Source: Polynucleobacter sp. AM-26B4
GTDB taxonomy: Bacteria > Pseudomonadota > Gammaproteobacteria > Burkholderiales > Burkholderiaceae
NCBI RefSeq assembly: GCF_018882285.1
Contig: NZ_JACVOT010000001.1
Span: 875,916 to 939,915 of the forward strand
Length of the DNA stretch: 64,000 bases
Direction of reading: 5' to 3'
How positions within the stretch are numbered: position 1 is the first letter of the stretch; the number at the start of each line of letters is the position of its first letter. Below the pieces are notes generated by a model, which had not been told where the DNA came from, did no database searches, and saw nothing but the letters and a program-made list of their open reading frames with translations. Below are positions 41,801 to 44,146 of the stretch, piece after piece. The position numbers and the translations under genes were made by a program.

Positions 41801-42676
41801 TCAGTCGAGAGTGATCTCGCCTTCAAAAACAGTTTGAGCGGGCCCGGTCATCATGACCGGATGTTGCATCGATAAAGCGCTGTCCCACGCAATGCTCAGA
41901 TCTCCGCCGCGTGTATGAACAGTCACTGGAGAGTCTAGGTGACCTCTCAAAATGCCAGACACAACCGCTGCGCAAGCACCAGTTCCGCAGGCCAAGGTTT
42001 CTCCTGAACCTCTCTCGAACACTCGTAGTTTGATTTCGTGGCGATTTTGAATTTGCATGAAGCCAGCATTCACCTTTTTCGGAAATGCCAAATGTGTTTC
42101 TATCTGCGGGCCATCTTTTGCAACGGGTGCAGTATCAAGATCTTGCACAATTTGCACAGCGTGTGGATTGCCCATCGAGATGGCATTGATCCACACTGCA
42201 TGATCAGAAAGTTCAAGTTGGTATAAGTTCGTCTTGCCTTCAACTTTTTCTTGAAGGTTTGAAGAGTTAAAAGGAATCGCTTCATTCATCAATATGGGGG
42301 CGCCCATATTGACCGTTACTTGACCGTCGTCATTTTCAGTCAGAGACAGGATGGTGTGAGCCACTTGCACTTTGACTGTTTTGTTCTTGGTCAAACCTTT
42401 TTCTCTCACAAAGCGGACAAAGCAACGAGACCCATTACCGCATTGCTCGACTTCACCGCCATCAGAGTTAAATATTCTGTAGCGAAATTCTGCTTCAGCC
42501 ACGGTGGGCTTTTCTACCAAAAGGATTTGATCGGCACCAATGCCAAATTGACGATGGGCAAGTCTTGCCCACTGCTCTTTGGTGATGCCAGAAAGGTCCT
42601 GAGATATGCCATTTAAGACAATGAAATCATTGCCTGCGCCATGCATTTTGGTGAAGCGTAATCTTGTGCTCGTCAT
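41801..42676 (-). CDS. dapF: Diaminopimelate epimerase
   Basis: Converts LL- to meso-diaminopimelate for lysine and peptidoglycan. The two catalytic cysteines are in [11 protein letters not shown] and LACGTGACA. The N-terminus is [17 protein letters not shown]. The length of 291 residues is normal. It is divergent from metK across a 165-bp regulatory region. Confidence 0.96.
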
Positions 42677-42694
42677 AGGGGTAAATATACAGGT

Positions 42695-42722
42695 TTGCCA
42701 TCAAAAGTGAGAATGTTATAGA
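42695..42722 (+). promoter_or_regulatory. Likely metK promoter
   Basis: TTGCCA (42695-42700), a 16-nt spacer and TATAGA (42717-42722). Transcription would start near 42729-42732, exactly where the structured leader begins. Confidence 0.55.
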
Positions 42723-42729
42723 ATTAAGG

Positions 42730-42841
42730 CTATTCGCCGAGTTAAGACAACTTGCGGGGCGAATTCAAAATATCCGCTAAAGCGTCGCCGCACTTAGTAA
42801 TACTCGGCACGTGTTGTCGCTTATTTAACTAAGGAGCATTC
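42730..42841 (+). promoter_or_regulatory. Structured metK leader RNA, candidate riboswitch
   Basis: About 110 nt with interlocking pairings found by eye. Stem A: GCCGAGT (42736-42742) with ACTCGGC (42802-42808). Stem B: GACAAC (42746-42751) with GTTGTC (42813-42818), which crosses A and would form a pseudoknot. Stem C: GGCGA (42758-42762) with TCGCC (42785-42789). An alternative hairpin, ATTCGCC (42732-42738) with GGCGAAT (42758-42764), excludes A and C. CTTAGT (42793-42798) can pair ACTAAG (42828-42833), which covers the AAGGAG ribosome site. I do not recognise it as a named SAM riboswitch class. Confidence 0.6.
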
Positions 42842-44008
42842 ATGGCGAACAATTATTTCTTTACCTCAGAGTCAGTTTCTGAAGGCCACCCAGATAAAGT
42901 ATCTGACCAAATTTCTGATGCAATTCTTGATGCCATTTTGGCCCAAGACCCAACTGCACGTGTAGCTGCAGAGACTCTTTGCAATACCGGCTTGGTTGTT
43001 CTTGCAGGTGAAATCACCACAACCGCCAACGTTGATTACATCCACGTCGCACGAGACACCATTCGTCAAATTGGTTACGACAATACTGAGTACGGTATTG
43101 ATTACAAAGGCTGCGCAGTGTTGGTAGCTTATGACAAGCAAAGCCCAGACATCGCTCAGGGCGTTGATAAAGCTCATGATGACGGTCTTGATCAAGGTGC
43201 TGGTGACCAAGGTTTGATGTTTGGTTATGCGGTTGATGAAACCCCAGAATTAATGCCTTTACCAATTCATTTGTCACACCGCTTAGTGGAGCGTCAAGCT
43301 GATTTGCGTCGTGATGGTCGTTTGAATTGGTTGCGCCCAGATGCAAAGTCACAAGTGACTTTGCGTTATGTTGATGGCAAGCCAGATTCAATTGACACGA
43401 TTGTTTTGTCTACTCAGCACTCTCCAGACATTTCTTTAGAGAAGCTTCGAGAAGCCGTGATTGAAGAAATCATCAAGCCGGTGCTTCCAAAAGAATTGAT
43501 CAAGGGTGAAATCAAGTACTTGGTGAACCCAACAGGTCGTTTTGTGATCGGTGGCCCGCAAGGCGATTGCGGTTTGACAGGACGCAAAATCATTGTTGAT
43601 ACATACGGTGGTGCAGCCCCTCACGGCGGCGGCGCTTTCTCAGGCAAAGACCCATCGAAAGTGGATCGTTCAGCTGCCTATGCGGGTCGTTATGTGGCTA
43701 AAAACATCGTGGCCGCTGGTTTGGCCAGCAAGTGTTTGGTGCAGATCTCATATGCGATTGGTGTGGCTCAGCCAACGTCTGTGATGGTCAGCACCTATGG
43801 CACAGGCAAGATTTCAGATGAGAAGATTGCTGAGTTAGTGCGTACTCACTTTGATTTAAGACCAAAGGGCATCGTAAAGATGTTGAATTTATTGCGCCCA
43901 ATCTACCGCAAAACAGCTGCTTACGGTCACTTTGGCCGTGAAGAGCCTGAGTTCACTTGGGAAGCCACAGACAAGGCTGCAGCCTTAAGGGCCGCTGCTG
44001 GTTTATAA
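42842..44008 (+). CDS. metK: S-adenosylmethionine synthetase
   Basis: Makes SAM from methionine and ATP, 388 residues. The methionine/ATP motif is [18 protein letters not shown] (GHPDK 15-19). [12 protein letters not shown] and the phosphate-loop [16 protein letters not shown] are also present. An AAGGAG ribosome site is 6 nt upstream. The gene is preceded by a structured leader and followed by the SAH riboswitch of ahcY, so SAM synthesis and SAH removal are neighbouring units with separate RNA control. Confidence 0.97.
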
Positions 44009-44023
44009 TTTTGCAAAATCTCT

Positions 44024-44112
44024 AAGGAGCGTTGCGAGGTGCTTAAGTCTCTAAAGTCTTAAACACCCTAGGCTTAGAGGAAGGCCCCAGGCCTTTAGCA
44101 ACGACGCTCGCT
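44024..44112 (+). ncRNA. S-adenosylhomocysteine (SAH) riboswitch
   Basis: It matches the SAH riboswitch pattern. The 5' strand GGAGCGTTGC (44026-44035) pairs with GCAACGACGCTC (44098-44109). A second hairpin (GGTGCTTAAG with CTTAAACACC, 44038-44067) and the conserved-type CTAGGCTTAGA segment follow, then AAGGCC/GGCCTT. It lies directly upstream of ahcY, the usual target gene. In this family SAH binding turns expression on. Its 3' strand overlaps the terminator arm beginning at 44106. Confidence 0.9.
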
Positions 44113-44146
44113 AACCTGTGAAGTGATTGGTTGGCGGGCTTTTTTT
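44106..44146 (+). terminator. Conditional terminator overlapping the SAH riboswitch
   Basis: GCTCGCTAACC (44106-44116) can pair with GGTTGGCGGGC (44129-44139), an 11-bp stem with two G-T wobbles, followed by seven Ts. The first four bases, GCTC, are also the end of the riboswitch P1 helix, so the two structures compete: ligand-stabilised P1 should prevent termination. Confidence 0.82.

Follow-up and report, generated by a model that had tools for sequence, protein, structure and literature searches.

A SAM-II-like pseudoknot leader upstream of metK in Polynucleobacter and other Burkholderiales, a probable translational riboswitch for SAM synthetase

Introduction

The RNA that most closely resembles the leader described here is the SAM-II riboswitch (RF00521, SAM_alpha in Rfam). 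The two have in common an H-type pseudoknot made of P1, P2a and P2b, joints of 5 and 6 nt and a core of UU-GC and GC-UAAA, and the accessible text of PMC1273637 describes for SAM-II a habitual promoter just 5′ of P1 and methionine or SAM genes downstream, as is also the case here. In contrast to SAM-II, the metK element has GAGUUAA in the place of GAUUUG, a paired third P2b step, a Shine-Dalgarno (SD)-type platform and a location before metK, and it scores 11.3–20.3 bits where listed, against a cut-off of 36. Some beta-proteobacterial SAM-II were known by 2005–2007 (PMC1273637, PMC2258182), and ‘metK’ does not occur in the accessible text of either paper. SAM-V likewise is a SAM-II-like pseudoknot and a translational OFF switch (PMC6061858, PMC2704228, accessible parts), but has its SD inside P2a, whereas the SD of the metK element (42831–42836) lies outside P2a (3′ strand 42784–42786). 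The SAM/SAH riboswitch (RF01727) is also the metK leader of a proteobacterial order and an H-type pseudoknot (PMC7367207, accessible part); it was reported from Rhodobacterales, and it has no match at the metK leader studied here.

In the accessible text of a study of ~200 proteobacterial genomes (Leyn 2014, PMC4239095), metK of beta-proteobacteria is without a known methionine regulator, and the authors' own search for one failed. The same text describes the metXZ element, a beta-proteobacterial pseudoknot leader with alternative pairing and a terminator before met genes, which the metK element resembles in its bacterial group, pseudoknot, alternative pairing and met-gene context. However, the metXZ element was described for metX and metZ, with a terminator and, in that text, with no link made to SAM-II, whereas the metK leader is without an intrinsic terminator and has only a weak site at 42805–42819. 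No SAM-II-like metK element in beta-proteobacteria was found in the open-access main texts searched; in PMC8632094, a study drawing on Polynucleobacter genomes, the main text lacks ‘metK’, and ‘SAM-II’ occurs once, within a longer reference-list match. On this literature and the Rfam scans below, the metK element is undescribed. An earlier note on this DNA had proposed an undescribed riboswitch, which holds for the metK element among the papers and families searched but not for its kind, since SAM-II is already known.

Here we analyse one window, a stretch of 64,000 nucleotides from Polynucleobacter sp. AM-26B4. Its metK leader is a real, conserved structured RNA, and we estimate a probability of roughly 0.8 that it is a SAM-II-like translational OFF riboswitch that senses SAM and controls SAM synthetase. 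If true, this would fill the metK-regulation gap for many Burkholderiales, supply naturally occurring pocket variants of a riboswitch that serves as a model pseudoknot and probably reveal the metXZ element to be SAM-II-like, and the bacteria would probably make less SAM synthetase when SAM is plentiful.

Results and discussion

Layout of the locus

Along the + strand, the leader is ordered as promoter, P1, loop strand, P2a, P2b, TAAAGC joint, alternative hairpin, anti-SD strand, SD and metK (Table 1). The strings that the earlier note quoted for the promoter, the hairpin and the anti-SD pairing (TTGCCA, TATAGA, ATTCGCC/GGCGAAT and CTTAGT/ACTAAG) all begin where it placed them. Both hexamers of its promoter, TTGCCA-16-TATAGA, are present; the promoter scan favours TTGCCA-18-TAGAAT (10/12). 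A −10-like hexamer, matching TATAAT in at least 5/6 letters, lies within 34 nt 5′ of P1 in 47/50 leaders (shuffled mean 10.6, maximum 18), and the best such hexamers end 5–7 nt from the edge of this 34-nt interval in 39 of the 50. Downstream, metK, a SAH riboswitch, ahcY and metF follow one after another. The SAH riboswitch (44018–44116, 47.3 bits, Rfam cut-off 37) sits between metK and ahcY-metF, and the single locus would therefore carry two different SAM-cycle riboswitches, counting the putative one in the metK leader.

Table 1. Features of the metK leader (window coordinates) and, in the last row, matches to RF02424 at other loci
Feature	Position	Strand	Description
Sigma-70-like promoter	42695–42724	+	TTGCCA 42695–42700 with TAGAAT 42719–42724 (spacer 18) or TATAGA 42717–42722 (spacer 16)
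P1 hairpin	42732–42764	+	ATTCGCC 42732–42738 / GGCGAAT 42758–42764; covariation
Loop strand GAGTTAA	42739–42745	+	Occupies the SAM-II third-strand place; G42741 where the first U is expected
P2a 5′ strand GAC	42746–42748	+	Partner GTC 42784–42786; covariation
5-nt joint AACTT	42749–42753	+	Contains two conserved U's, 42752–42753
P2b 5′ strand GCGG	42754–42757	+	Partner CCGC 42774–42777; covariation
P2b 3′ strand CCGC	42774–42777	+	Covariation
6-nt joint TAAAGC	42778–42783	+	Place of the ligand-contacting U-A-A-A in SAM-II/SAM-V (contacts: PMC6061858, accessible part)
P2a 3′ strand GTC	42784–42786	+	Covariation
Alternative hairpin	42782–42812	+	GCGTCGCCG 42782–42790 / CGGCACGT 42805–42812, C42786 bulged; excludes P2a
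Anti-SD strand CTTAGT	42793–42798	+	Partner ACTAAG 42828–42833; swap test and folding
ACTAAGGAG	42828–42836	+	Anti-SD target plus SD AAGGAG 42831–42836
metK, methionine adenosyltransferase, 388 aa	42842–44008	+	TIGR01034, 611.6 bits
RF02424 opposite-strand matches	L199:1877–1999; L174:371–493; L163:372–494; L181:1766–1897		43.6; 29.6; 22.9; 22.6 bits

Covariation and folding

We aligned 37 metK leaders, the window plus 36 loci, selected by searching for G[AC]GTTA, CAACTTGC and GCTAAAGCG while tolerating few mismatches. Because the same letters served as search pattern, the constancy of the anchored letters (UU, GC and UAAA included) is partly built in; the covarying columns of P1, outer P2a and inner P2b were free of anchors. 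The aligned leaders share the H-type pseudoknot of Table 1, and compensatory changes are seen in all three helices. In P1, 6/7 pairs change on both sides and 88.8% of cells are paired. In P2a and P2b all cells (100%) are paired, with 5 double changes in the former, from GAC/GTC to AAC/GTT, and 15 in the latter, among GCGG/CCGC, GCAG/CTGC and GCGA/TCGC. The covariation score of P1, P2a and P2b together was 0.332, against 0.169 for shuffled alignments (0/500 as high) and a maximum of 0.103 when the helices were slid. The hairpin proposed in the earlier note is P1, which is kept across the leaders with compensatory changes, and the covariation among related metK leaders to which it had looked extends to P2a and P2b; it had overlooked the pseudoknot that GCGG/CCGC (42754/42774) and GAC/GTC (42746/42784) form.

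Concerted changes were also counted along a 50-row tree of MetK proteins. The inner P2b pair changed 9 times on one side, 11 times on the other and 13 times jointly, with corresponding counts of 3, 3 and 3 for the outer P2b pair, 3, 4 and 4 for the outer P2a pair, and 7, 3 and 9 for the P1 closing pair. Among independent pairs on this tree there were zero changes in the opposite direction, and each single sign test was above 0.05. The folding energy of 42730–42850 had a z of −1.78, with 10/200 shuffles equally good, and the aptamer and platform regions folded slightly better than shuffles (z −1.03 and −1.42). Folding energy alone is insufficient to establish the element; the comparison does establish it. 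A pairing of the P1 3′ strand with a downstream TCGCC was rejected: 83.2% of cells pair, but its covariation does not exceed that of shuffled alignments (on five measures, between 54 and 378 of the 500 shuffles scored as high).

Occurrence at metK loci

Among the 80 loci most similar to the window's MetK, R1, a covariance model built solely from metK leaders, matched 37 (36 in full, L032 in part), 32 of which were its own training rows, and gave zero matches at E 0.1 in L050–L080. A BLAST search with the 120-nt leader at E 0.001 reached 180/186 genomes of the genus, often through the first 60 to 90 nt alone among the matches listed. Across the order, R1 at E 0.01 matched 247/399 genomes and 118/158 genera, with some matches away from metK; metK is directly downstream in 28/30 of the loci L131–L160 and in 12 of 20 drawn from the other 120 matches listed. 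At class level and E 0.001, 38/274 genomes were matched, including 3 of the order to which the window belongs, and in 20 stretches from this search tblastn shows metK in one, L249. The pattern GCTAAAGCG by itself proved useless as a detector, as it occurs at 21 places in the window's own genome.

Relationship to SAM-II

An Rfam scan of 42500–43000 with permissive filters gave no match above cut-off, to an unrelated family or otherwise, and listed only PinT and SAM_alpha. PinT (14.7 bits, cut-off 60) and similar sub-threshold matches were rejected, and the SAM_alpha score of 11.3 bits (cut-off 36) is background, because 15 other places in the same genome score higher. Of 15 other loci scanned, two had SAM_alpha at the metK leader (L019, 20.3 bits; L030, 19.9 bits). 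The models for SAM-I, SAM-III, SAM/SAH, SAH and SAM-VI had zero matches up to E 10 in 42500–43000, and the SAM-V model, which we take to be RF01826, was absent at the leader from Rfam matches up to the same E-value. The earlier note had judged the leader unlike SAM-I, SAM-II/V and SAH. With regard to SAM-II the judgement fails, since topology, spacers and core letters agree.

The agreement was measured on 30 alpha SAM-II loci, in 29 of which the anchor pattern finds the same frame. At the 5-nt/6-nt spacing from the P2b GC pairs, all three P2a pairs form in 48/49 metK leaders, 14/29 alpha loci and 12/42 second copies, and the P2a pair adjoining the joint forms in 49/49, 29/29 and 40/42, respectively. 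The third strand is GAUUUG in 29/29 alpha loci, whereas the window has GAGUUA: its third letter, the first third-strand U, is U in 29/29 alpha loci but G in 47/49 metK leaders, and its sixth letter is G in alpha and A in the metK set, where the A is fixed by the search pattern. The third P2b step pairs in 49/49 metK leaders, compared to 6/29 alpha loci and 23/42 second copies. When R1 was run on the 30 alpha SAM-II loci, it matched the SAM-II place in 10, at best with 13.2 bits (E 0.036). As judged from these alignments, kinship of the metK element with SAM-II is clear in structure and faint in score, and the element is set apart from SAM-II proper because it has neither the third-strand letters of SAM-II nor a score above the Rfam cut-off.

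The changed third strand and the paired P2b could mean that the same fold serves a different ligand, with specificity shifted to SAH, MTA, decarboxylated SAM or a related sulfonium. The G in 47/49 leaders and the third P2b step, paired in 49/49 against 6/29 alpha loci, would fit such a shift, as would the related elements that precede a MATE transporter operon, and the accessible part of PMC10853860 describes a SAM-I re-aimed to spermidine through pocket changes. However, UU-GC and UAAA, the letters that hold SAM in SAM-V (PMC6061858, accessible part), are kept, although their constancy is partly built in by the search anchors; the downstream gene is the SAM synthetase; and a separate SAH riboswitch adjoins at 44018. 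We consider another ligand unlikely, and SAM remains the preferred one.

Expression platform and proposed mechanism

The platform was tested on 50 non-redundant metK leaders, with native partners compared to swapped ones. The anti-SD duplex between the post-aptamer segment and the ribosome site had a native mean of −16.4 kcal/mol, against −12.35 for swapped partners (sd 0.41; z −9.8); 0/20000 permutations were as good, and a control segment gave z −1.4. The native partner was the best of 50 in 6 leaders and within the best five in 19, and the pairing takes up three or more bases of the SD core in 42/49. The letters of the duplex vary by lineage, for example CTTCAGACTCC/GGAGTCTGAAG in L012 and CTCCTGGG/CCCAGGAG in L019, and the CTTAGT/ACTAAG pairing that the earlier note had placed over the ribosome site thereby has counterparts with different letters in other lineages. 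The alternative hairpin also favours its native partner (−14.5 against −12.55, z −7.1, 50 leaders). It is the best fold of 42782–42818 alone, while 42778–42850 favours the anti-SD fold, and the anti-SD strand overlaps it by at least 2 bases in 29/49 leaders. That the alternative helix draws on GUC is not discriminating, as it does so in 48/50 leaders against a swapped mean of 47.0. In an equilibrium simulation with GUC pairing forbidden, mean SD access dropped to 0.230 from 0.248, decreasing in 8 cases out of 48 and increasing in 2; the direction is the predicted one (Wilcoxon p 0.0014) and the size is small. Equilibrium folding thus weakly supports a switch which, if real, is probably kinetic.

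We propose the following mechanism. Transcription would begin just 5′ of P1, P1 would fold, and GCGG in its loop strand would then pair with the downstream CCGC to form P2b. SAM would sit in the P2 groove among GAGUUAA, the UU preceding P2b and the UAAA, and would lock P2b and the short P2a (GAC/GUC). Without SAM, GCGUC(GCC) would pair instead with the downstream GGC(n)ACG, and this alternative hairpin would use or enclose the anti-SD strand, so that the ribosome site stays open. Once SAM is bound, P2a would hold GUC, the alternative hairpin would be weakened and the anti-SD strand would cover the SD, so that less MetK is made. Comparison of the leaders shows P1, P2a, P2b, the −10 position and the anti-SD pairing, and gives weaker support to the alternative hairpin; SAM as the ligand, the direction of the switch and the kinetic order of folding we infer. 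The earlier note's reading of the metK leader as a structured cis-regulatory RNA that contains a pseudoknot and an anti-SD helix is supported to this extent; its hairpin and anti-SD pairing stand, and its specific pseudoknot pairings do not.

Control of transcription by attenuation or Rho, and not of translation, might be suggested by the terminators that, by eye, follow many of the related elements upstream of other met genes, and by the one weak terminator-like site that the scan flags at 42805–42819. This site, however, consists of 5 pairs and lacks a strong U run, shuffled sequences yield 0.3 sites of this kind, and the anti-SD pairing persists in different lineages, all of which make transcriptional control very unlikely for the metK leader. 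A protein-binding or other non-riboswitch leader is highly improbable, given how closely topology, spacers and core letters match a metabolite aptamer. The crossing helices of the earlier note, GCCGAGT/ACTCGGC (42736/42802) and GACAAC/GTTGTC (42746/42813), are exact complements present where it quoted them, and a full complement of GACAAC also occurs in L001, L002, L096, L107, L110 and L146, but the chance that they form a functional pseudoknot of a new class is close to nil, since full downstream complements are found in 6/50 and 7/50 leaders, no more than with permuted partners (means 5.7 and 6.2), and the covarying helices are others, P1, P2a and P2b. GTTGTC (42813–42818) recurs in the Polynucleobacter metK leaders L001, L002, L096, L107 and L110, where it covers the P2a 5′ strand, and GTTGTC/GACAAC is perhaps an additional alternative pairing at the level of the genus.

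Related elements before other genes

Although built from metK leaders alone, R1 also picks up elements upstream of metX, metZ and metH. From the order-wide search we took a bridging set of 32 genomes with extra or weak matches, in 40 stretches, three of which are metK loci (L164, L165, L172). The usual form is GCGCCGATTTGA..CAGCTTGC..GCTAAAGCG, in many cases followed by what looks by eye like a terminator hairpin with a U run. Rfam was run on 20 of the 40 stretches and gave SAM_alpha in 14, above cut-off in L178 (44.0 bits) and L173 (39.1 bits), and none up to E 5 in the other six. Part-length sequences of the products indicate O-succinylhomoserine sulfhydrylase (L171), MetX (L190), MetH (L182) and a cystathionine gamma-synthase-family protein (L173). 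Judging by the text of PMC4239095, the terminator-type copies are probably Leyn's metXZ element.

In L140, L157, L162, L163, L174, L196 and L199 the elements stand in tandem, the first copy with a terminator-like hairpin and the second of the SD type, as seen by eye. Such tandems resemble the SAM-II doublets described in the accessible part of PMC9481103 (forty-four, some with mixed platforms) and the SAM-II/SAM-V pairs described there. In 7 of the 8 non-metK loci sampled, as well as in L157, the element is followed by a protein of ~100 aa that starts with MYDC or MFDC and then by a MATE-like protein. SD-type SAM-II-like elements precede this pair in L258, L259, L260, L267, L269, L271, L272, L157 and L162, in tandem in the latter two; a MATE profile confirms the transporter in L162 only, and the three MYDC proteins tried had no Pfam match. 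It is conceivable, though doubtful, that RNAs of the metK type form a separate translational subclass of SAM-II/SAM-V, in which the remodelled pocket (U replaced by G in the third strand, P2b closed) recognises either SAM at a different affinity or a different SAM-like compound, and that SD-type copies behind terminator-type copies act as two-level gates, also at the MYDC-MATE operon, which would hint that export of a SAM-related compound is regulated.

SAM-II-like elements also precede genes without an obvious methionine role in L242–L246 (five in one genome), L236–L240 and L248, with MoxR/AAA-like proteins downstream in L238 and L248. The Burkholderia sRNA family RF02424 (Bp2_287) matches the opposite strand of several SAM-II-like elements, in all cases below its cut-off of 70 (Table 1), and may represent a riboswitch and its terminator annotated on the wrong strand. 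Finally, a c-di-GMP-I-GGC-like match (L178:2113–2194, 50.9 bits, cut-off 59) lies near a gene that appears to be controlled by a SAM-II element.
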